A DNA stretch of 64,000 nucleotides from Plantibacter sp. ME-Dv--P-122b. GTDB taxonomy: Bacteria; Actinomycetota; Actinomycetes; Actinomycetales; Microbacteriaceae. Where the stretch lies: assembly GCF_030209375.1 (NCBI RefSeq), contig NZ_JARVSC010000007.1:1-64000 (forward strand). The letters are read 5' to 3'. The notes beneath the pieces are model-generated. The model was not told the origin of the DNA, ran no database searches, and was given only the letters and a program-made list of their open reading frames with translations. How positions within the stretch are numbered: position 1 is the first letter of the stretch; the number at the start of each line of letters is the position of its first letter. Positions 20,063 to 58,291 of this stretch are shown here, piece by piece. The position numbers and the translations under genes are program-made.

Positions 20063-20211
20063 GGAACACGGACCCGTTCACCTCTCGGAATGTCGGCGGC
20101 CCTTTTCGGGTTGCACTGCACCAAGACTTGACATGGGTCCTCGTAATGTCCGAAATCACGGACGATCCGGCGATGACTGTCCATGCCGGGTCCGAACAGG
20201 AAGGTGCAGCT

Positions 20212-21495
20212 ATGGCCACCAAGACGGCTCGCGCAGACGAAGCAGCGCCAGCAGACGAGGCCACGGAGGCTCCCGCAGCGAAGGCTCGGACCACCAAGGC
20301 CACCACGACCCGAGCGAAGGCTGCTCCCAAGAAGGCCACCCGCGCCAAGACGGGTACGAAGTCGAGCACTGAGCCCGACGAGGGCACGGACGACGAGGAC
20401 GTCGTCGTCGAGGTCGTCGCCGACGACGCCGTGGTCGACGCGCCCGCAGGCGACGCCACCGAGGCGGTCGAGGAGGAGGACGACAAGTCCGTGCCGGAGA
20501 TCACCCTCCCCACCGACGCACTCGTGCTCTCCAACAGCGACGACGACGAGATCCCGGTGTACTCGGCCGCGATCACCGGCGCCACCGCCGACCCGGTCAA
20601 GGACTACCTCAAGCAGATCGGTAAGGTCGCGCTCCTCAACGCGGCCGAAGAGGTCGAGCTCGCGATGCGTATCGAGGCGGGCCTCTTCGCCGAGGACAAG
20701 CTCGCACAGCTCTCCGACCTCGAGAAGCGCTCGCGGGTCGGTCGTGAGCTCCAGTGGGTCGCGAAGGACGGCGCCCGCGCGAAGAGCCACCTCCTCGGGG
20801 CGAACCTCCGACTCGTCGTGAGCCTCGCCAAGCGGTACACGGGCCGCGGCATGCAGTTCCTCGACCTCATCCAGGAGGGCAACCTGGGCCTCATCCGTGC
20901 GGTCGAGAAGTTCGACTACACCAAGGGTTTCAAGTTCTCCACCTACGCGACCTGGTGGATCCGTCAGGCCATCACGCGCGCCATGGCCGACCAGGCGCGC
21001 ACCATCCGCATCCCGGTGCACATGGTCGAGGTCATCAACAAGCTCGCCCGCGTGCAGCGGCAGATGCTGCAGGACCTGGGCCGCGAGCCCACGCCCGAGG
21101 AACTCAGCCGCGAACTCGACATGACGCCCGAGAAGGTCATCGAGGTCCAGAAGTACGGCCGCGAGCCCATCTCGCTGCACACGCCCCTCGGCGAGGACGG
21201 CGACAGCGAGTTCGGCGACCTCATCGAGGACACCGAGGCGGTCGTGCCGGCCGACGCCGTCAGCTTCACCATGCTGCAGAAGCAGCTGGAGTCGCTCCTC
21301 GACTCGCTCTCCGAGCGGGAAGCGGGCGTCATCCGGATGCGCTTCGGCCTCGGCGACGGCATGCCCAAGACGCTCGACCAGATCGGCGACACCTTCGGGG
21401 TCACCCGTGAGCGCATCCGGCAGATCGAGTCGAAGACCATGGCGAAGCTGCGTCACCCGAGCCGATCCCAGTCGCTTCGCGACTACCTCGAGTAG
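20212..21495 (+). CDS. sigA: Principal RNA polymerase sigma factor (sigma-70, SigA/HrdB type)
   Basis: Directs RNA polymerase to housekeeping promoters. The 427-residue protein has an Ala/Lys/Thr-rich acidic N-terminal extension of about 120 residues, region 1.2 ([16 protein letters not shown]), region 2 ([19 protein letters not shown] and [16 protein letters not shown]), region 3 ([13 protein letters not shown]) and region 4 with the -35-binding helix-turn-helix ([19 protein letters not shown]). The ATG at 20212 begins [10 protein letters not shown] after AGGAAGGTG; an in-frame ATG at 20146 would add 22 residues and cannot be excluded. murT begins 4 bases after the stop. Confidence 0.96.
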
Positions 21496-21499
21496 GAGC

Positions 21500-22762
21500 A
21501 TGCGCTACGCCCCGGCCATCCTCGCCGGTCGTGCCGTCCGATTCCTCGCCAGGCTGCGCAAGCCGGGCGGGGGATCGGCCGTTCCCGGCCTCGTGGTCAA
21601 CCGCATCGCGCCCGGGTTCCTCCCCGACACGCTGAACGCCTTCCCGCGCGGTCTCGTGATCGTGAGCGGCTCGAGCGGGAAGTCGACGACGACCAAGATG
21701 CTCGTCGGCATCCTGCGTGCCCACGGTGTGTCGGTCTTCACGAACCCGTCCACGGCGAACATCTCGCAGGGCCTCACCTCAGCCCTCCTCGAACGAGCCG
21801 ATCTCCGCGGCCGCATCGACGCCGACCTCGGGGTGCTCGAGATGGACGAAGGACACGGCGCGCTCATCGCGCCGCGCCTCGCACCCGCCCACGTCATCCT
21901 GACCAACGTGTCCGTCGACCAGATCGACCGCTTCCACGACGCCGCCATGGTGGCCCGCATGCTCGACGCGATCGCCGCCCGATCGAGCACGTCGCTCGTC
22001 CTGAACGGCGATGACGCACTCGTCGACGCCGTCGCTCCGGGCAGCGACGCGACGCGATGGCGGTACGGCGTCTCGACGGCCGTGCTCGGCGCCAGCGCAC
22101 GCGGCCTCGGCTACAGCACGACCTCGTCCGATCGGGTCGACCCCGGTTCCGGAACCGTCGTCGAAGCCCTCGACGGCGATCTGGTGTCGATCACCCACCG
22201 CGGTGAGACCGTGCGGTTCCGCCTGCCGGCCCGCGGCGTGCACTACGCCGTGGATGCGGCTGCAGCCCTCTCCGGCGCCGCCGTGATCCTCGGCCCCGAG
22301 TTCCGGCTCGCCACCGCGGCGGAGTCGTTCCGCGCGCTCACGCCGGTGTTCGGCCGCGGCGAGGTGACGACCGTCCGCGGGGTGGAGGTCGAGTTCGTCC
22401 TCGTCCAGAACCCCGCGAGCTTCCAGCTCAACGTCGACAGCCTGGCGGCCGACACCGAGCAGATCCTGGTGGCCGTCGGGAGCGACGTCCGCGATCCGTC
22501 GTACCTCTGGCCGGTCGACACGTCCAGGCTCGGCCGTGTGGCGCTCGTGTCGGGCTCCAAGGCCTGGGAAGCCGCGCTGCAGCTGGGCTATGACGGGGTC
22601 GAGATCGACCGGATCGAACCGGACCTCGGCACGGCGTTGGACGCGTTCCTCGCCCTCCCGGCGCCCGAGCACGGTCGGAAGACCGTGATCTTCACCGCCG
22701 ACTCGATGCGCCGCACCCGTGCGCACCTCGGCCTCGCCTCGAACGATCAGGACGACGCATGA
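21500..22762 (+). CDS. murT: MurT-like Mur ligase family protein lacking the zinc ribbon
   Basis: In other Gram-positives MurT activates the D-Glu alpha-carboxyl of lipid II with ATP for amidation by GatD. This 420-residue protein has a Mur-ligase P-loop, SGSSGKSTTT (56-65, instead of the usual TGTNGKTT), EMDEGHGAL, the ILTNVSVDQIDR motif and the C-terminal DUF1727-like part with LVQNPASFQ (301-309) and RDPSYLWPVD (331-340), matching the KNPAG and RDVSWIWD blocks of MurT. There is no cysteine anywhere, so the Cys4 zinc ribbon normally inserted in the middle domain is absent. TAGGAG overlaps the sigA stop just before the ATG. It overlaps gatD by ATGA and is surely co-translated with it. See findings for an alternative role. 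Confidence 0.88.
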   Translation: MRYAPAILAGRAVRFLARLRKPGGGSAVPGLVVNRIAPGFLPDTLNAFPRGLVIVSGSSGKSTTTKMLVGILRAHGVSVFTNPSTANISQGLTSALLERADLRGRIDADLGVLEMDEGHGALIAPRLAPAHVILTNVSVDQIDRFHDAAMVARMLDAIAARSSTSLVLNGDDALVDAVAPGSDATRWRYGVSTAVLGASARGLGYSTTSSDRVDPGSGTVVEALDGDLVSITHRGETVRFRLPARGVHYAVDAAAALSGAAVILGPEFRLATAAESFRALTPVFGRGEVTTVRGVEVEFVLVQNPASFQLNVDSLAADTEQILVAVGSDVRDPSYLWPVDTSRLGRVALVSGSKAWEAALQLGYDGVEIDRIEPDLGTALDAFLALPAPEHGRKTVIFTADSMRRTRAHLGLASNDQDDA

Positions 22763-23508
22763 CGACCGAGCCGACGATCACCATCGCCGTCCTCCTGCCC
22801 GCGAGCTGCAATGTGAACGGCGACGCCGAGAACGGTGCGGTCCTCGCTCGCCGAGCACGCGCGCGTGGTCTCGCCGTCGAGCTCGTCCCGGTGGAATCGG
22901 TCGCCGAGCTCCCGAGCACGGTCCACGCCGTCGTCCTCGGGTCGTGCGACGACCCGTCGGCGCCACAGGTGCTCGAGGCGCTCCGGCCGTTCCGCGACGC
23001 GTTCATCGCCTGGGTGGAGGCCGGCGTCCCCGTCCTCGCGATCGCCAACGGGTGGAAGCTCCTCACGCGCCGGCTCGAGCTGGTACCGGGGAACTGGGTC
23101 GAGGGCCTCGCCATCATCGAGGGCGACGCCCCGTTGCGGCGCACGCGGGCGAGTGACGACCTCGTCGTCGTGCCCAGCGGCAGACTCGAGCTCGACGCCC
23201 CGGTGCTCGTCGGGTACGAGAACCACGGGCGGGACTTCCGAGCCGGGACGGGCGTCGAGTCGGTCGGCGCCGTGCAGCACGGACGAGGCAACGGCGACGG
23301 GACGGAGGGTGCGCTGGTCGGCCCGTTCGTCGGGACCCACCTGCACGGTCCCGTGCTCGCCAAGAACCCGGAACTGGCCGATCGGCTGCTCCGTCTGGCG
23401 ATCACGGTCGCCGGCGGCACCTCGATGCTCGACGGGTCGCCGGAGCTCCACGCCCTCGACGACATCGCTGCCAACGCCAGAGCGCAGATCGTCTCCGCGC
23501 TCGCGTGA
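22759..23508 (+). CDS. gatD: GatD-like glutamine amidotransferase fold protein without catalytic cysteine
   Basis: GatD normally hydrolyses glutamine and passes ammonia to MurT. This 249-residue protein keeps the GatD frame: CNVNGDAENGAVLARRA near the N-terminus, GYENHGRDF (152-160) matching the glutamine-binding GFENHGG block, and the catalytic-histidine motif THLHGPVLAKNPELAD (His196). The nucleophile elbow, normally AxCGGYQ, reads LAIANGWKLL (93-102): alanine at 96 stands where the cysteine should be. The two cysteines present (17 and 63) are elsewhere. It is therefore predicted to have no glutaminase activity. The start codon overlaps the murT stop. Two strong hairpins follow. Confidence 0.88.
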   Translation: MTTEPTITIAVLLPASCNVNGDAENGAVLARRARARGLAVELVPVESVAELPSTVHAVVLGSCDDPSAPQVLEALRPFRDAFIAWVEAGVPVLAIANGWKLLTRRLELVPGNWVEGLAIIEGDAPLRRTRASDDLVVVPSGRLELDAPVLVGYENHGRDFRAGTGVESVGAVQHGRGNGDGTEGALVGPFVGTHLHGPVLAKNPELADRLLRLAITVAGGTSMLDGSPELHALDDIAANARAQIVSALA

Positions 23509-23613: not shown

Positions 23614-23844
23614 CTAGGCGCGCTGCTCGTTGAAGAGTCGCGCGGACTCGTCGTGCCAGTCGGTCGCGACCTGCGTCAGCTTCTCCTGGTACTTCTTGCC
23701 GTGGTGCGCGCAGAACAGCAGCTCGCCGCTGTTCATCTGCACGCGGATGTAGGCCTGTGCTCCGCACAGATCGCAACGATCGGCGGCAGTCAGTTGCTGG
23801 GCGTCGAGGTCACTCGGCGTGCTCTCGGTAGCAGTCTGTGACAT
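23614..23844 (-). CDS. DUF7455 family small zinc-finger-like protein
   Basis: A 76-residue protein of unknown function. The centre contains ADRCDLCGAQAY and, about 20 residues on, LLFCAHHGKKYQ; two cysteines plus a further cysteine and histidines suggest a single structural zinc site. The polar N-terminus and the C-terminal helix (WHDESARLFNEQ) are variable parts. Proteins of this type are found next to sigA and the topoisomerase genes across actinobacteria. GGAGGAGC lies upstream of the ATG. It faces gatD across the two hairpins and diverges from parE. Confidence 0.85.
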   Translation of the reverse strand: MSQTATESTPSDLDAQQLTAADRCDLCGAQAYIRVQMNSGELLFCAHHGKKYQEKLTQVATDWHDESARLFNEQRA

Positions 23845-24062
23845 GTGCTCCTCCTGACTCGGGCGGCTACGAAACTCGTAGTACTCATGAAAGCACGCGA
23901 TTGTCACAACGGGGTCCCATTCCGTGTTCGTTTCGCTGTGCGCGTAGATGATTCGGATCAACCGTGCAGCCGGATGGGTCGACGGCCCGCGAGAACGCTC
24001 CATCGAGGGCGTCCGGGCGATCTCGCGCCGAGTGTCTCCCTCGGCGTGTCGGCGCCGACGAC

Positions 24063-24068
24063 TACGCT
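24063..24068 (+). promoter_or_regulatory. -10 box of parE (leaderless)
   Basis: TACGCT, 7 bases before the GTG start at 24076, with no ribosome site between. The rest of the 231-base gap to the DUF7455 gene shows nothing else I can name. Confidence 0.5.
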
Positions 24069-24075
24069 GGGAAGC

Positions 24076-26154
24076 GTGAGCAGCGACTACTCCGCCAGGC
24101 ATCTCTCCGTCCTCGAAGGCCTCGAGGCGGTGCGTAAGCGACCGGGCATGTACATCGGTTCCACCGACTCGCGTGGCCTCATGCACTGCCTCTGGGAGAT
24201 CATCGACAACTCCGTCGACGAGGCCCTCGGCGGGTACGGCGATCAGATCGAGATCGTCCTCCACGCCGATCAGAGCGTCGAGGTGCGCGACCACGCACGT
24301 GGCATCCCGGTGGACATCGAGCCGAAGACCGGTCTCTCCGGTGTCGAGGTCGTCTTCACCAAGCTCCACGCCGGCGGGAAGTTCGGCGGCGGTTCGTACG
24401 CCGCGTCCGGCGGGCTGCACGGCGTCGGCGCTTCGGTCGTCAACGCCCTGTCCGAGCGACTCGACGTCGAGGTCGATCGCGGCGGCAAGACCTACGCGAT
24501 GTCGTTCCACCGCGGCGAGCCGGGGATCTTCGCCGACACGGGGGAGCCGACCCCGGACGCACCGTTCACACCGTTCGAGAAGCAGAGCGAGCTCCGCGTC
24601 ATCGGCAAGACGAAGCGCGGCGTGACCGGCACCCGGATCCGCTACTGGGCCGACCGCCAGATCTTCACGAAGGGCGCGCAGTTCCAAGCCGACGAGCTGC
24701 TCGGCCGCGCGCGCCAGACCGCCTTCCTCATCAAGGGGCTCGGAATCCACATCCGCGACGAGACCGTCGAGGAGCCGACCGAGGCGATGTTCCGGTACGA
24801 GGGCGGTATCTCCGAGTTCGTCGATTACCTCGCAGGCGACACCGCGCTCACCGACACCTGGCGCCTCACCGGCAGCGGCACGTTCACGGAGACCGTCCCG
24901 GTGCTGTCACCGTCGGGCACCATGGTCGCCACCGAGGTGGAGCGCGAGGCAGAGGTCGACATCGCACTGCGGTGGGGGACCGGGTACGAGACGGTCATGC
25001 GCAGCTTCGTCAACATCATCGCCACGCCGAAGGGCGGCACGCACCAACTCGGATTCGACCAGGGCCTGTTGAAGTTCCTCCGCGCCCAAGTCGAGCAGAA
25101 CGCCCGTCGACTCAAGGTCGGCTCGGACAAGCTCGAGAAGGACGACGTCCTCGCGGGCCTCACAGCGGTGCTGACGGTGCGCCTCGCCGAGCCGCAGTTC
25201 GAGGGCCAGACGAAGGAGATCCTCGGCACGCCGGCCGTCCGAGCCATTGTCGCCAACGTCGTCACGAAGGAGCTCAAGGAGCGGTTCGCCTCGACCAAGC
25301 GCGACGACAAGGCGCAGACCGCGCTCGTGCTCGAGAAGATCGTGTCGGAGATGAAATCCCGGATCTCCGCGCGGACCCACAAGGAGACGCAACGCCGCAA
25401 GAACGCGCTCGAGAACTCGTCGCTCCCGGCCAAGCTGGTCGACTGCCGCTCGGGCAACCTCGAGTCGAGCGAACTCTTCATCGTCGAGGGCGACTCGGCA
25501 CTTGGCACGGCGAAGCTCGCTCGAGACAGCTCCTACCAGGCACTGCTCCCGATCCGAGGCAAGATCCTCAACGTGCAGAAGGCCTCTGTCTCCGACATGC
25601 TGTCGAACGCCGAGTGCGCGTCGATCATCCAGGTCATCGGCGCGGGATCCGGACGATCGTTCGATCTCGACGCCGCCCGCTACGGCAAGATCATCCTCAT
25701 GAGCGACGCCGACGTCGACGGCGCCCACATCCGGACCCTCCTGCTCACCCTCTTCTTCCGGTACATGCGGCCGCTCATCGAGGCAGGTCGCGTGTTCGCC
25801 GCAGTACCGCCGCTCCACCGCGTCATCGTCATCAACCCCGGCTCCAAGCCGAACGAGACGATCTACACGTACTCCGAAGCCGAACTGCACGCGGTGCTCA
25901 GCGACCTCAAGCGCACCGGCAAGAAGCACCAGGAACCGATCCAGCGCTACAAGGGCCTGGGGGAGATGGACGCCGACCAGCTCGCCACCACCACCATGGA
26001 CCGCCGTCACCGCACGCTGCGCCGGGTCCGCGTCGAGGATGCGGAGTCGGCCGGACGGATCTTCGAACTCCTCATGGGCAACGACGTCGCCCCACGCAAG
26101 GAATTCATCGTCGACAGCTCCGACCGACTGTCGCGGGAGAGCATCGACGTCTGA
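24076..26154 (+). CDS. parE: DNA topoisomerase (ATP-hydrolysing) subunit B, ParE/GyrB family
   Basis: ATPase subunit of a type IIA topoisomerase. The 692-residue protein has the GHKL ATP-binding motifs (EIIDNSVDEALGG, GLHGVGASVVNAL), the transducer domain, and the TOPRIM motifs EGDSALGTAK and LMSDADVDGAHIRTL with the metal-binding Glu and Asp residues. The length and location near sigA and parC point to the ParE-like subunit rather than the GyrB next to dnaN and recF. The GTG at 24076 begins VSSDYSARHLSVLEGLEAV, placed by the leaderless -10 box; a longer in-frame reading crosses the promoter. parC is convergent, not co-directional. Confidence 0.92.
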   Translation: MSSDYSARHLSVLEGLEAVRKRPGMYIGSTDSRGLMHCLWEIIDNSVDEALGGYGDQIEIVLHADQSVEVRDHARGIPVDIEPKTGLSGVEVVFTKLHAGGKFGGGSYAASGGLHGVGASVVNALSERLDVEVDRGGKTYAMSFHRGEPGIFADTGEPTPDAPFTPFEKQSELRVIGKTKRGVTGTRIRYWADRQIFTKGAQFQADELLGRARQTAFLIKGLGIHIRDETVEEPTEAMFRYEGGISEFVDYLAGDTALTDTWRLTGSGTFTETVPVLSPSGTMVATEVEREAEVDIALRWGTGYETVMRSFVNIIATPKGGTHQLGFDQGLLKFLRAQVEQNARRLKVGSDKLEKDDVLAGLTAVLTVRLAEPQFEGQTKEILGTPAVRAIVANVVTKELKERFASTKRDDKAQTALVLEKIVSEMKSRISARTHKETQRRKNALENSSLPAKLVDCRSGNLESSELFIVEGDSALGTAKLARDSSYQALLPIRGKILNVQKASVSDMLSNAECASIIQVIGAGSGRSFDLDAARYGKIILMSDADVDGAHIRTLLLTLFFRYMRPLIEAGRVFAAVPPLHRVIVINPGSKPNETIYTYSEAELHAVLSDLKRTGKKHQEPIQRYKGLGEMDADQLATTTMDRRHRTLRRVRVEDAESAGRIFELLMGNDVAPRKEFIVDSSDRLSRESIDV

Positions 26155-29996: not shown

Positions 29997-31115
29997 TCAG
30001 ACCGGGTCGTCGTCGGACTTCGCACCGAACACGATCTCGTCCCAGGACGGCATCGACGCTCGGCCGCGGCGCGCCTTGGCCCCGGACGGCGTGCCGCCAT
30101 CGGAGGACTCGGCATCGCCCGCGCGTCGCTGCTGCGCCGCCTCGAACTCACCGGTGTCGAACACCGCCAGCGGCGTCTGCTGATCCGGGACGGCGTGCGG
30201 CGTACTGGGGCGCTCGGCAGGTTCGGGTTCGCTGGGAGCGGCCTCCCGCTCGCCGCGGCGCTTGCGGAGCGCCTCGAGCAGGTCGGCGGTCTGGTTGTGC
30301 TGCTCGGGACTCGAGGCCTCGCGGTTGATCGCGGCCTGCGTCGCAGCCTTCGAGGAGGGTGCACGGCCGAAGCCCGTGTCAGCGGCGAACGGCAACGGCT
30401 CGATCGGACGCGTCTCGGCTGGACGGTCGGTCTCGGTCTGCTGCGGCGTCGACACGCGGTCCAGGGAGAACGCGCCGCTGTCGAAGCGCGAGGTGTCGGG
30501 GGAGTCGTCGGTGTCGACCGCCCGCAACCGGGGGATCAGCGCGGCCGGCAGGTCACCCTGACGCGAGAGGGTCGTGGCTTCACTCCCGATGGGCGTGAGG
30601 GCGAGCTTCTTCGGCTCGAACGCCCAGCGGGCGTCGTGGTCGACCTGGTCGGCCGTGAAGGACAGCTTGACGATCCAGCCGCCCTCGGGTTCCTTCCAGC
30701 TCGTCCACCGTTCGTCGGTCGCGCCGAGCTTCTCGAGTCGAGCCCGGATGACGTTCCCGAAGGTGGCCTCGATGTCGTCGGCCGACGTGTCGGTCGTCGG
30801 CAGGACGGCGACGCCGAGGGCGGTGCCGACGATGTGCTCGCGCTCCGCCATCACCGGACCCTCGAACCGCTGCACGTACTCCAGTGAGGCACCGGTGACC
30901 GCTGCGACGTCCTCGGCGGAGAGCCCGCTGCGGATGTGCGCCTGCACTTCCCGCGGGGAGATCTTGGTGTTCCCACCGATCGGCGCACCGGCCGGCTTCG
31001 CCCGCCGCAGGTGGACGTGGAACGAATCGTCGACGATGAGGCGGTATTCCTCCTCGTTCCGATCTGCAACGATCAGAGCGCCGAGCTCCGCTCCGACTAC
31101 CTTCAATTCCTGCAT
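29997..31115 (-). CDS. sepH: Septation protein SepH (DUF3071)
   Basis: SepH promotes FtsZ assembly and septum formation in actinobacteria. The 372-residue protein has the conserved N-terminal domain beginning MQELKVVGAELGALIVADR, including a helix-turn-helix-like segment SPREVQAHIRSGLSAEDVA (about residues 55-75), and then a conserved block to about residue 185. The C-terminal half is acidic, Pro/Ser-rich and probably disordered, ending with the short conserved SWDEIVFG motif. That closing motif is a good candidate for a partner-binding peptide. A GAGAGG site precedes the ATG. Confidence 0.92.
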   Translation of the reverse strand: MQELKVVGAELGALIVADRNEEEYRLIVDDSFHVHLRRAKPAGAPIGGNTKISPREVQAHIRSGLSAEDVAAVTGASLEYVQRFEGPVMAEREHIVGTALGVAVLPTTDTSADDIEATFGNVIRARLEKLGATDERWTSWKEPEGGWIVKLSFTADQVDHDARWAFEPKKLALTPIGSEATTLSRQGDLPAALIPRLRAVDTDDSPDTSRFDSGAFSLDRVSTPQQTETDRPAETRPIEPLPFAADTGFGRAPSSKAATQAAINREASSPEQHNQTADLLEALRKRRGEREAAPSEPEPAERPSTPHAVPDQQTPLAVFDTGEFEAAQQRRAGDAESSDGGTPSGAKARRGRASMPSWDEIVFGAKSDDDPV

Positions 31116-52464: not shown

Positions 52465-55400
52465 CTATCCGACGCGTTCGAGCGGCTCGACCGGAGCCGA
52501 CCGCTCGATCTCGGCGACCCAGGCGTGTCTGGTCTCCGGATCCTTCCGGATCGACAGGAGCCGGTCCATGTAGGGCTCGAGCGCCGTCACCTTGTCGAGC
52601 GGGGCGCCGATCACGAGCTGGAAGCCGAGCCGCAGCCAGGCGACCACCGCGCGGCCGGCGAACTCCGAGTCCGCCTTGATGAAGCCTTCGTCGAGCAGCA
52701 CCGGCGCGAACCTCGGACGCGGGCGGTCCTCGTCACCGAGCTGGTAGCGGAGGGCAGCACCGACGATGAACGCCACGAGCTCCTGGGTCTCGCCGCCGCT
52801 CTTGTCGCCGAGCGACGAGTAGACGCTGACGTCCTGCCCCGACGTGTCGTACCGCACGGCGGTGATCTCGACGTGACGGCGCACGTCGAGCACCTGGTCG
52901 CGGGTCGACTGGGCACCGGCACCCGTGTCGCGCATCGACTCCATGAAGCGGCGGAGCCGCTGGAACCGGGCCTCCAACTCGTCGTCGCCGAGGTTCGCGG
53001 TGACCTCGCTCGACAGGGCCCGCAGCTCGCGCCGGAAGGCTGAGGCCTCCTCGCGATGCACCCGGCGGAGGACGATCTTCAGACGATCGTGCGCCGGTCC
53101 GAACGGCAGGTCGCGCAGAATGTCGTTGACCGGGACCAGACGGTCCTCGATCTCCTCGACGGCGCTGTCGAACGCACTGCTGAGGGGCACGAGGTCCTCG
53201 CCGCTCCACTGCGACAACCGGCGACGCCACTCCTGACGGCGTTCGGGGAGACCGGTGCCGAGGATGCCGTCGAGGATCGCCCGGTAGTCGTCGTAGGACT
53301 CGAGCGTGGTGCCGAGGTTGGGGTCGTGCCAGATCGACTGGTACTGCTCGAACACGTGCACCTGTGCGAGCGCGGCCTGCTCCGCCTTGCGGACGGCCGA
53401 CGACAGCTCGTCACCGAGCCGGGCGCGGAGCCGCTTCATCGCATCGCCGAAGCCACCGAGTGACGGCACGCCGCCCACCGCCGCGAGGGCGGCCTCGATG
53501 CGCTCGACGTCGGCGGGGGAGACCTCCTCCACATCGGAGCGCTCGAAGCGGTCGATGACCGTCGTCGCGGCGTCCTGCTGATCGACGAGAACCCCGTGCT
53601 CCTCGTCCAGGCGTCGGACTCGGTCTTCGGCCGGGAACCGCTCGGCGTTCGCGGCGTCGAGTTCACGCTGGGCGGCCGTGACCGAGCCCTGGAGCTCCTG
53701 CAGGACGTCACTGGCGTCGAGCAGACGCTCCAGCTCGGCCGTGGCGGCGTCACGATGCGCAGCAGCACCGGCGACGTCGATCCTGGCCCACTCGGTGTCG
53801 AGTCGGTACCGGTGGGCGGCCCGCTCGGCCTCACGGCGCGAGAGCCGCTGCTGAATGCCGGCCTGTCGACCGGCGATGACCTCCAGGCGCCCGCGGATCT
53901 CGGCCGTCTCAGCCTCGATCGACGCGATCCGCGCCTCGTTGGTGAAGCCGAGGATCGGCGCGCCGCCCGTGTCGCCATGGGAGCCGCGGCGGCCGTCACG
54001 CAGCTGGCCGTTCACGGTCACGCGGCGACCGCCACCCGAGAGGTCAGACGCCGACTCCACGCACCGCGCGTCGATCCGGTCCGAGCTCACGCGCTGCTCG
54101 ATCCACGCGCTGAACGGGGAAGTGCGGTACGTGACGCGGCCGGAGATGAACGCGGGGTCACCCGCGTCTGGGGAGGACGGCTCGTGCAGCGGGACGCCCT
54201 CGAACTGCAGGCGGATCGGGATCCGGACCGCGTCGATCGCGCGGCCGAACGCGTCGAGGTGTTCCTCGTCGACGAGGACGGTCCTCGCGAGACCGTGCAG
54301 CGTGACCTCGATCGCGGGACGCCAGGCGGCGTATGCGGGAGCGACGTCGACGAGCTCGGCCACGAACGGCAGCTGTTCGGGATCGAGTCCGGCCGCCTCG
54401 GCGAGGGCGAGCCGCGCCCGGTGGAGTCGATCGGGCACCGCGCCGTCACGGCCCCGCAGCGACTGCAGCTCACGGCGGAGCTCGGTGTTGCGCTCCTCGA
54501 GTGGGAACGCTTCCCGATGCAGCTGGGCGCGATCGGTCTCGATGGCGTCGAGCGCGGCGTCGTCGTCGGCGAGGAAGTCCTCGCTGCGGCCGAGCGCACG
54601 CAGGAACGAGGCTTCATCCTCGATCGGATCGTCCAGGACTTCCGTGCGCTCGTCGAACAGGGACCGGGCTCGCTCCACCTCGGCGTGCGTCGCCTCCGCG
54701 GCCTCACGGCGTTCCTCAGCACGCCGCAGCGCGCTCCCGCCCTGCTCCGACACCTGACGCTCGAGTTCACGGACGCGGACACCCGCCGCAGCGGCCCGTG
54801 CCCGCGCCGCCTCCAGCGTGGCCCCGGCCTCGAGCTTCTCCCGCCGGTTCCTGGAGACCGCTTCATCGAGCAGTGCCTCGTGCGCGCGACTGCGCCAGAC
54901 GGTGAACGGTGTCGTGCCGTCCTCGGTGAAGCCGAGGCGCTCCAGGTCGGCCGCCGCGCGGTGCCCGTCCTCGTAGTCGCGACGCAGCTCACCCAGCCGC
55001 TCGAGCACCCGAGCCTTGCGGCTCTCGGTCTCCATCGCGAGGTACGCCTCGTCGAGCGCCTCGAAGTGCGACAGCGCCCGGTCGGCCGCGTCGTACGTGC
55101 TCGGACGCTCCAGCACCATCGACTTGTACAGGCCGTCGACCGTCGGCAGGTGCTGGCCCGCCTGGATCCGGGCCAGCAGACGCATCGCCCGACCACCGTC
55201 GCCACCGGCACCGATGCCGAGACGGGTGTGCAGCGTGTAGGACAGCTCCGCGTAGGTGTCGCGGACGACGAATCCGGGGATGCGACCCTGGAGCTCACCG
55301 GCGTCGAACCGCTTCGGCACGAACGCCTCGAGGTCCGTGAGCTCGAACGGCCCGTCGACGGTCGCCATCGTCATCGACAGGTCACCGGTGCGCAGCGCAC

Positions 55401-55845
55401 GTCGGGGGACGAGGTAGGCGCGCACGACGGTGAAGCGACGGTCGTCGTCGTTGAGGAACGTCACCGCCACGGCACCCCAGGTGAGCTGGTCCGTGCCGCG
55501 CAGGTTGATGTCGCGCATCGCCCCGGTCTGCGGGTCGCGCGCCGAGTCGACCTTGCCGCGGAGATACGTGAGCAGGTTGCGCTGGTCGGGGTTCCGCGCC
55601 CGTCCGACCGCTGCGTCGTTGGAGGCGCCGTTGAACGGCACGTCCGACGGCATCATGACCGCGAGGTACGCGTCCATGAGCGAGCTCTTCCCGGTGCCGG
55701 AAGCGCCGGAGATGAGCGTCGCGCGGGAGGCGAAGTCGACCGATCGGTACCCGTCGAACCCGCCCCAGTTGATAACCTGCATCCGTTCGATGCGCCACTG
55801 CTCGACGAGGTCGAGCAGGGTGTCGGTGTCCGTGGCGCGGCTCAT
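52465..55845 (-). CDS. jetC: SMC-like ATPase JetC/MksB of a Wadjet-type complex
   Basis: Large SMC-family motor, 1126 residues. Walker A is [17 protein letters not shown] (44-60); the ABC signature is [12 protein letters not shown] (about 1015) and Walker [15 protein letters not shown] (about 1048). Between them lie two coiled-coil arms (roughly 270-480 and 650-800) flanking a hinge-like domain. The organisation is that of JetC/MksB, which forms a DNA-loop-extruding complex with JetA and JetB and, in defence systems, works with the nuclease JetD against plasmids. The start overlaps the jetB stop by ATGA. No jetD follows: the next gene is the SOS-controlled small protein. Confidence 0.9.
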
Positions 55846-56687
55846 CGGTCGTCCTCTGCTGCTCGTGTCTGGGTCGGGTCGTCGGGGGAGTCCTGCGACT
55901 CGGCTGCGGTGTCGTCGGGCTCGGCGTCCGAGTCCGCGTCAGCATCGGGTCGCGGCTGTTCGGAGGCAGGGTCGACCGCTGCGGTCTGCGTCTCCAACCA
56001 CTCCAGGAGTTCCTGGAGGCGCTCGAGGGGGAGGAGCGTCTCCACCACCGAGGCGATGCGGTGGCGACGGGCGTCCTTGGTGCGCAGCAGGACCCGGGCG
56101 GTCAGCAGCTTGTCGATCGCGCGCTCGACGCGTCCGTCGTCACGGGCACGGTCGGTGGCGTGCTCGGGCCGGAAGCTCGCGACGAAGCCGAGGAGTTCGT
56201 CGTGTTCGACGATCGCGGCTCGTGCGCCGTTGGCCAGTTCGGTCCGGAGACGCGTCCGCAGGTAGACGAGCAGGATCGTCTCCTCGCGGCTGTAGCTGGT
56301 GTCGTGCAGCAGGGTTGGGAAGGGACGCCGCCCGCTCTCCGAGCCCGCCTGGCGCTTGAAGGCGACCTCGGCCGAGCGGTCCACCTCGAGCTCCAGGAAC
56401 AGCTCGTTGAGGCGGGACCGCAGCAGCGACTCGGACTCGAGGACCGTCCGCCACTCGGCCGGCTGGAGCGCGGGGCTGACGTAGCGGTGTTTCAGCAGGG
56501 CGACCAGCGCACGACGCTGAGCCGCGTCGAGGCGTCCTTCGTCCCCTTCGAAGAGCGCGAAGGAGTCGTCATCCGGGCCGGTGACCGGCGTCTCGGCGGG
56601 TGCGAAGGCGTCGAGTCCGTCCGTCGTCAGATCATCCGACGTCGGGTCGGTCGTCGCCGTCACGGTGGGATCCGTCTCGGAGGTCAT
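55842..56687 (-). CDS. jetB: JetB/MksE-like DUF4194 protein
   Basis: Predicted KITE-type subunit linking JetA and JetC, 281 residues. The first 45 residues are acidic and Thr-rich; the core domain runs from about 50 to 220 with [42 protein letters not shown] and [15 protein letters not shown], which match DUF4194. A winged-helix-like block ([20 protein letters not shown]) follows, then a long acidic tail. The gene starts 1 base after the jetA stop and overlaps jetC by 4 bases, so the three are translated together. Confidence 0.88.
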
Positions 56688-56688
56688 G

Positions 56689-58236
56689 TCATTCCGTTCC
56701 GCGCCCGGCCTGGTCGGCCGGAGCAGTGGTCGTGGTCGTCGTGGCCCGCGTCAGCGCTGCGACACCGGCCTCACCGAGCGGGAACGCCGGGAGTTCGAAC
56801 GCGGTGGTCGTCCCGTCCGGACGGACCGTCTCGTAGCGACGGCGAGGTGCCTGCTCGTCGTACGTGCCCAGCTGGGTCATGAGGTGGACGAGGCCGAAGA
56901 GCTCCACCGGTCGTCGGAGTTCCGGATCGAGCCCGGAGAACGCCGCATGGGCGTCCTCGGCACCGGAGGTCACCGCGTCGAGGAGTCCGGCCCGGAGCTC
57001 GTCGAGGAGCGGACCGCCCTGCGAGCGGAGGATGTCGAGCGACATCGCCGCGCCGTCGGTCCGTTCGACGGTCGTCGTGATCGGCGGCGGTGCGACCTCG
57101 ACGTCCGGATCGTAGAACCGCTCGCGCAGGTGCTCGATGTCGATGGTCTCGGGGAGGAGCGGAAGGTCGACGGTGGCGCGAGGCCCAGCGGTCCGCATCC
57201 AGATGCCGAGGCGCTGGTTCAGTGCCCGCAGGGTCGTGTCGAGCTCGCGGTCCTGCACGACGTCGTGATGCACGATGTGGTCGCGGAGCGTCGCGGTGAG
57301 CCGCCGACGCTGCGCGAGGACGTCGTCGATCCCCTGTCGGATGATCCCGACGGCACCCCGGAAGCCCCGCAGCTCCGCGGGCCCGAGCCTGGCCGAGAAG
57401 GGGTGGTCGAGGATCGTGGAGAGGTCGCGTTTGAGGTCCTGCAGCAGATCGTCGTTGCGGAGGAGCTCGAAGGCGCCCTCGAAGGCGCGGCCCTCGGCCG
57501 TCGCCGTCATGAGCTCGTCGGTGCGCCGGAGGTAGTCGTCGAGGATTTCGCCGATCGGACGGGTGTCGTTCCGGAAGTCCTCGACGATCCGCCGGTGCAT
57601 CGCGATGACCGACTCCTCGACCCGGCGGAAGTCGCTCGGGAGCTGACGGATGAGGTCCGCGATGTTCGCGTAGCCGTCCTGCATCCGGTCGTCGCTCGCC
57701 GCCACGACGGTACCGCCGGCCGCGACCCGTTCGCGTTCCGCCTGCAGCTCGGCGAGCTGCGCGTCGATACGACGCAGATGCTCGTCGCGGTCCGGGTCGG
57801 CCTGCAGCGCCCATCGGCGCACCGAGTCGAGGATCATGGTCAGGCGCGACTCACTGATGAGGGCCCGGTCGTGTGCGAGGCCGTCGACGAGCGAGACCGC
57901 TTCGAGCGCGTGCGAGGTGAGCGAGTACTGCTCCTCGCCGTCGTCGGTGCTCGTCCGGACGAGCCACTGGTCGTGGACCCACTCCCGGCAGAGGGTGCGT
58001 CCGCCACCGCGTTCGTCACCGCCGGCCGGGATCCGCGCACCGCGTGCCGCGAGTTCACCGAGGTATTCCTCGACCTGCAGATGGAAGCGATCCGCTGCGA
58101 CGAACTGGACGTCGCGGCCGAAGGTGGTCCGGAAGATCGCGACCACCGCGGGTGCGGTCGGCCGGCTCAGCAGCCGGATCGCGGGACGCTCCAGCGCGTC
58201 CCGGACGCGGCCGAACTCTCCGTCGATCTCTCCCAC
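56689..58236 (-). CDS. jetA: JetA/MksF-like DUF3375 protein
   Basis: Kleisin-like subunit of the complex, 515 residues. The N-terminal winged-helix region shows [25 protein letters not shown] and [25 protein letters not shown]; the middle is a long helical region ([21 protein letters not shown] and [28 protein letters not shown]), and the C-terminal winged helix contains [13 protein letters not shown]. This is the DUF3375 pattern. The GTG at 58236 gives VGEIDGEF and is preceded by AGGAG. A GATAAT -10 candidate (58292-58297) lies about 55 bases upstream. Confidence 0.9.
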
Positions 58237-58291
58237 TGCACTCCTCGATCGTCCGGGCACACGAACACCCCGAGGCCACCGCAGCTGCCAG

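Follow-up and report, generated by a model that had tools for sequence, protein, structure and literature searches.

What can a MurT/GatD pair do in the cell wall when its glutaminase subunit has no catalytic cysteine? This question is raised by two adjacent genes of Plantibacter sp. ME-Dv--P-122b (Microbacteriaceae), located in a stretch of 64,000 nucleotides of contig NZ_JARVSC010000007.1 that was analysed as a whole and is called the window here. Peptidoglycan type serves as a standard character in the taxonomy of Microbacteriaceae, and B-type peptidoglycan, with the bridge attached at the D-Glu alpha-carboxyl, occurs in Rathayibacter, Curtobacterium, Okibacterium and Agromyces. A bridge at this carboxyl needs activation of the carboxyl, which is the reaction of MurT. 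The diamino acid is likewise described as a taxonomic character, and it is reported to vary within Microbacterium (L-Lys, D-Orn, Dab). Our searches of the open-licence literature turned up no study that names the ligase attaching the bridge to D-Glu in B-type peptidoglycan. The first-pass annotation of the window had put forward its MurT/GatD pair as a candidate for this ligase.

The MurT/GatD pair of the window

As listed in Table 1, the pair lies between two genes that we take, from their sequences, to be sigA and a parE/gyrB-type topoisomerase gene. The sigA stop codon and the murT ATG are separated by 4 nt, and murT and gatD overlap by 4 nt. A scan of the window against Rfam at gathering thresholds gave no match.

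Table 1. Genes of the sigA slot in the window and codons of interest
Feature	Position	Strand	Remarks
sigA, principal sigma factor (presumed)	20128..21495	+	Left slot boundary; start provisional
murT, P-type	21500-22762	+	420 aa; Pfam Mur_ligase_M and MurT_C, above gathering score; codons: SGSSGKST from 21665, N87 21758, V139 21914, D332 22493
gatD, P-type pseudo-glutaminase	22759-23508	+	249 aa; Pfam GATase_3, above gathering score; codons: A96 23044, R130 23146, H196 23344
Small DUF7455 protein, between gatD and parE	23617..23922	-	Pfam PF24254, E 1e-23; stretch as searched, start provisional
parE/gyrB-type topoisomerase (presumed)	23845..26154	+	Right slot boundary; true start probably further in

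Re-reading of the sequence confirmed that the window MurT has no Cys at all and a P-loop of SGSSGKST, as the first-pass annotation had stated. In the alignment, LAIA96NGW of the window GatD corresponds to LTIC94GGY of S. aureus GatD, which places Ala96 at the nucleophile position, again as annotated; Cys17 and Cys63 are present in the protein, neither of them at this position. The His motif had been described as kept, and His196 is indeed the equivalent of S. aureus H189, with Arg130 the equivalent of R128. The S. aureus GatD mutants C94A, H189A and R128A are each reported to be glutaminase-dead (PMC5871853), and amidation is reported to be abolished by C94S and severely reduced by D349N in MurT (PMC6113224). 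In the window MurT, D332 corresponds to this D349 and N87 to S. pneumoniae N85, an Asn reported as essential. V139 stands where the gate Arg is expected. In S. pneumoniae this loop Arg is described as one that 'closes the gate' between the two active sites, on the evidence of models of a loop unresolved in the crystal (PMC6085368).

The window pair shares with the solved MurT/GatD of S. aureus, S. pneumoniae and S. pyogenes the adjacent genes, the domains, the ATP site, the acceptor Asn, the MurT Asp at the GatD interface and the GatD fold. Unlike the solved enzymes, it has no nucleophile Cys, no gate Arg and no ribbon, and its P-loop is GSxGKST. NCBIfam equivalog cut-offs were not reached by either protein (85.1 vs 800 bits for MurT; 77.3 vs 450 bits for GatD with the best GatD model). 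The predicted window GatD fold (mean pLDDT 94.9) was closest to solved GatD (Foldseek E 3.8e-20), which was likewise the best match in sequence comparison. For the predicted window MurT (mean pLDDT 88.8), rows 1-9 of the structural matches were solved MurT, and the later rows held both MurT and Mur ligases; the closest matches other than MurT itself were MurC-MurF and archaeal pseudomurein ligases. These ligases use ATP for activation of a carboxyl and an amino acid as nucleophile, and are not known to have a GatD partner. The N-terminal domain of Mur ligases is reported to be cut short in MurT (PMC6113224).

Elsewhere in the window, three adjacent genes on the minus strand (52468-58260) match JetC, JetB and JetA (1310, 415 and 611 bits) and apparently form a Wadjet plasmid-defence operon; JetD was not seen beside them, with one further neighbour scanned. 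A DUF3071 protein (PF11268, E 5e-37), presumably of the SepH cell-division family, is encoded at 30000-31115 on the minus strand.

Classes of MurT/GatD and loss of the cysteine

The searches covered two samples of the family (60 and 199 genomes), 396 genomes from the order, 394 from the class and 59 from genus g61. In the 199 genomes the best 9 candidates per genome were scored for MurT and the best 14 for CofE-like proteins, in the class the best 4, and in other surveys the best 7 or best 30, so that absences in these surveys are provisional; named genomes were scanned in addition, and figures for these hold among the matches listed. Readable pairs, obtained from part of the matches, comprised 256 loci, of which 217 were distinct with one counted per genome and class.

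The 217 pairs were sorted into four classes: 92 P-type (the class of the window pair), 97 canonical, 24 H/Clostridia-type and 4 others. Sorting relied on the GatD nucleophile, two short motifs and MurT D349, so that the counts for these hold by definition. Since the Cys was used in sorting, its presence in 0/92 P-type vs 97/97 canonical pairs proves nothing alone. The gate Arg of MurT, lost in 92/92 P-type and kept in 97/97 canonical pairs, and the P-loop, with Ser in 90/92 P-type pairs, are outside the sorting criteria and also separate the two classes. At the nucleophile position the P-type has Gly in 69 pairs, Ala in 17, Ser in 5 and Asn in 1.

The residues for ATP, Mg and the acceptor carboxylate are intact in the P-type. 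The acceptor Asn, Mg Glu, P-loop Lys and hinge Arg (equivalents of N87, E117, K61 and R286, respectively) were found in 92/92 pairs, as was the D349 equivalent, which was used in sorting. In GatD the R128 equivalent is kept in 86/92 and the catalytic His (H189 equivalent) in 56/92, being gone in 36/92; both residues were present in 97/97 canonical pairs. When the window was compared with one genome of the same genus, dN/dS was 0.040 for murT, 0.218 for gatD and 0.077 for part of parE, and selection on murT and gatD is purifying. These results uphold the earlier view that the pair is retained with its ligase side intact. We consider it very improbable that the pair is a relic, with GatD inactive and drifting and MurT/GatD without a wall role of its own: GatD is indeed less constrained than MurT and the His is gone in 36 pairs, but dN/dS is well below 1 (one genome pair compared), the catalytic residues of MurT are invariant and the pair stands beside sigA in 87/92 cases. 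The partial retention of the His and the faster change of GatD than of MurT fit a merely structural GatD, and we count them against the bridge reading proposed below.

Absence of the zinc ribbon had been taken as part of the repurposing. This was not borne out, and ribbon loss was rejected as a marker, because 83/97 Cys-bearing pairs also have no CxxC in MurT; the ribbon is reported to occur in only a subset of MurT (PMC6113224).

As had been supposed, loss of the Cys is a trait of Microbacteriaceae in our samples, with 90/92 P-type pairs from this family and none of the 92 with Cys. The other two loci (L173, L175) are in MAGs titled Actinomycetes and Cellulomonadaceae and both adjoin sigA; they are counted outside Microbacteriaceae in this figure and inside it in the sigA-slot and flank counts below. 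Thirteen Cys-bearing pairs were found within Microbacteriaceae, away from the sigA slot where readable. The P-type profile at 1e-60 matched 23 of the 394 class genomes when the best 4 candidates per genome were scored: 12 Microbacteriaceae with at least 547 bits and 11 others with at most 411 bits.

A MurT tree was built from 73 chosen rows with a quick method and has some long branches. Its 29 P-type rows form one branch (SH-aLRT 100), and 4 switches between presence and absence of the Cys are required on it. The nearest relatives of the P-type are ribbonless canonical MurT/GatD of other Actinomycetales, which are also ribbon-free but, unlike the P-type, keep the Cys, the His and the gate Arg. 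A second Cys-less lineage, made up of H-type pairs of Microbacteriaceae and pairs of Clostridia/Eubacteriaceae type, likewise has a Cys-less GatD beside MurT. It differs from the P-type in forming a separate branch (SH-aLRT 99), in having CxxC in 24/24 and Leu, Ile or Met for the GatD His in 24/24, and in the replacement of MurT D349, a residue used in sorting.

Among the matches listed, P-type pairs occur in named Rhodoluna, Rathayibacter, Curtobacterium, Okibacterium and Agromyces. The named P-type MurT proteins form one group with the window (support 93), containing Rathayibacter, Agromyces, Cryobacterium, Glaciihabitans, Naasia (where no GatD was read), Amnibacterium and Rhodoluna, and another (support 99) containing Curtobacterium, Okibacterium and Microcella. 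We take the genera of the first group to be Dab genera and Curtobacterium to have D-Orn. Rhodoluna is a Dab carrier in print, the wall of Rhodoluna lacicola being given as B2-beta with D-Ala-D-Dab. The comparison of MurT grouping with bridge amino acid in these genera is a lead and not a test.

Cys-less and His-less GatD with MurT was also seen in MAGs of Clostridia, Eubacteriaceae and Oscillospiraceae (L184, L186, L188, L190, L205, L206, L213, L215, L222). At L205 (3486-6526) the gene after the Clostridia-type pair is ornithine-racemase-like (365.6 bits against a cut-off of 480), which we count in favour of the bridge reading; no such gene was seen at the other 7 of the 8 Clostridia-type loci with neighbours listed. 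Two more types of Cys-less GatD, both outside Microbacteriaceae (L118 and L119 of family f7; L120 and L121 of family f18), have Arg or Asp at the nucleophile position and a MurT with CxxC.

The sigA slot and its ligases

The strongest evidence for a bridge ligase in the P-type pair is its location in the slot between sigA and parE. Within Microbacteriaceae, sigA was found within 2.2 kb upstream of 87/92 P-type pairs (3 not, 2 not readable) and of 13/15 Cys-less pairs of H-/Clostridia-type. The corresponding count for Cys-bearing pairs was 0/11 readable in Microbacteriaceae (2 not readable), and canonical pairs outside the family gave 0/57 readable (27 not readable). In 7/7 examined genomes with Cys-bearing pairs only, the slot was empty, sigA being directly followed by parE.

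Other ligase genes can occupy the slot. Among the 199 genomes (best 9 and best 14 candidates scored), the MurT profile matched 163, counting any class, and the CofE-like profile 30; both were found in 3, CofE-like only in 27 and neither in 9, the last of which counts against a bridge role. CofE-like genes are thus present in 3/163 MurT-positive vs 27/36 MurT-negative genomes (Fisher p 2e-22, kinship ignored). The slot was read in 27 genomes without a MurT match, and 21 of these contain a CofE-like gene in it (PF01996 on the example scanned). The CofE-like gene was not in the slot of five: sigA stands directly before parE in G019, G051, G454 and G484, the last with its CofE-like gene on another contig, and G049 has transporter-like genes there. 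The remaining slot (G044) is cut by the contig end. In genus g61, a CofE-like gene occupied the slot of 8/8 MurT-negative genomes examined. Both the MurT and the CofE-like kind are present in 11 genera, and in g53 within one genome, while g38, g43 and g49 have the P-type in some species and the H-type in others. Repeated exchange in one place suggests that the ligases of the slot share one task.

The idea of one ligase for all B-type walls was rejected. CofE-like genes stand in for MurT in 27/199 genomes, so MurT/GatD cannot be the only bridge ligase of Microbacteriaceae. In G511 (genus g53; L263, L304), a Clostridia-type Cys-less MurT/GatD shares the sigA slot with racemase-like ORFs and a CofE-like gene that has diverged; G053 of this genus has the same ligase genes, but sigA was not found next to them.

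Further genes accompany the ligases in part of the genomes: ATPgrasp_ST (PF14397), MurJ (one genome), a diaminobutyrate transaminase, and a short Ala_racemase_C protein together with an alanine-racemase-like protein. In G328 the diaminobutyrate transaminase, above the EctB equivalog cut-off, lies directly before murT-gatD. Flanks of the 92 P-type pairs, often short, showed racemase- or transaminase-like ORFs in 31, parE without racemase, transaminase or ATP-grasp in 31, ATP-grasp in 1, and no such genes in 29, 19 of them with less than 1.2 kb read. The window is counted among the flanks showing nothing because its locus is short, though parE follows its gatD. Its slot contains no racemase, transaminase or other amino-acid-supply gene and no ATP-grasp. 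A search of the whole genome found a single Ala_racemase_C gene, and no transaminase of EctB type. Both the bare slot of the window and the figure of only 31/92 count against bridge formation by the pair.

Two candidate markers were discarded. EctB also occurs in G014, which has a Cys-bearing pair only and carries the gene away from sigA, and in G486; it is therefore not specific, and EctB-type transaminases were rejected as a genome-wide marker. The second alanine racemase (alr) gene of G040, G034, G007 and G031 lies near a glmS-like gene and not in a ligase cassette, both gene names being our own assignment.

The varied content of the slot leaves room for another wall product. MurT/GatD would then add a non-bridging substituent such as Gly to D-Glu, as found on the D-Glu alpha-carboxyl in Micrococcus luteus, or act on another precursor carboxyl, and the bridge would be made by ATP-grasp or other slot proteins; in line with this, ATPgrasp_ST accompanies H-type MurT/GatD in some slots and CofE-like genes in others. 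We regard this as rather unlikely, since ATP-grasp was found beside only 1/92 P-type pairs (many flanks are short), and with none in the window slot MurT/GatD would be the only bridge candidate there.

An alignment of MurE from 30 selected genomes was used to read its motif. TD[FHY][HN]PR was found in 16/16 genomes with a P-type, H-type or CofE-like ligase vs 3/14 without a slot ligase (G016, G473, G049); the other 11 have TDDDVH, CDYHPR, NDINPR or CDAHPR. Genomes free of slot ligases therefore mostly differ in the enzyme of the third stem residue, as expected if wall type differs. G016 counts against the bridge role, as it has a Cys-bearing pair only and an empty slot, yet the MurE motif of slot carriers. 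MurE of G059, G019, G003 and G024 (L309-L312) is very different (TDDDVHxED, with a branch length of 3.57), which would fit a replacement of the gene.

Proposed reaction and its alternatives

We propose, with a probability of about 0.6, that the two window genes encode a Mur ligase and its pseudo-glutaminase partner, and that the ligase couples a bridge amino acid to D-Glu in B-type peptidoglycan. We infer its reaction, acceptor and amino acid as follows. As its residues at the ATP and acceptor sites are invariant, MurT probably continues to phosphorylate the D-Glu alpha-carboxyl of the wall precursor. The attacking amine would be a free amino acid instead of ammonia made by GatD, most likely the diamino acid of the B-type bridge, and the product would then be a branch that is later cross-linked to the D-Ala of a neighbouring stem. 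The gate Arg may have become dispensable once no ammonia was channelled. GatD would have been retained since MurT depends on it, and the former glutamine pocket of GatD (Arg130, oxyanion Gly) may still bind the amino acid. S. aureus MurT is reported to be inactive without GatD, even for NH3 (PMC3266927). By analogy, MurT could still be activated by a dead GatD to use an amine from outside.

The same S. aureus system offers a different use for such a pair, namely D-isoglutamine formation on unbridged stems from free ammonia and not from glutamine. MurT with GatD C94G amidates lipid II with free NH3 at pH 8.5 but not at pH 7.5, according to the report (PMC3266927). Muropeptides of Clavibacter michiganensis, which is B2-gamma, are reported to include amidated D-Glu (PMC9603630), a point that favours amidation and counts against the bridge role. 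An ammonia-dependent amidase is nevertheless decidedly unlikely in our view, as NH3 was not used at pH 7.5 and as it leaves unexplained both the loss of the gate Arg in 92/92 pairs and the exchange with CofE-like, ATP-grasp and racemase cassettes in one slot.

Ligation of a bridge amino acid fits the neighbourhood (racemase-like proteins, diaminobutyrate transaminase, ATP-grasp, MurJ and other ligases) in part of the genomes. In this respect the candidacy first given to the pair is supported in part, whereas a single family-wide ligase is not, 27/36 MurT-negative genomes having the CofE-like gene. On a wider scale, we see an even chance that the slot beside sigA is where Microbacteriaceae have the long-missing locus for the B-type bridge. 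It would be an exchangeable cassette whose ligase is either a MurT with a pseudo-glutaminase, from one of two separate lineages, or a CofE-like protein, and the racemase, ATP-grasp and transaminase genes would determine the amino acid.

These results offer candidate genes, a locus and alternatives for the missing B-type bridge ligase, and they caution against annotating Cys-less MurT/GatD as lipid II amidating enzymes. If the proposal is true, the P-type pair would exemplify how a glutamine amidotransferase can become an amino-acid ligase once its glutaminase is lost. On the wider reading of the slot, such bridges would extend to those Clostridia that have the second Cys-less lineage, and swaps of the sigA-slot cassette would account for the different diamino acids of sister species.
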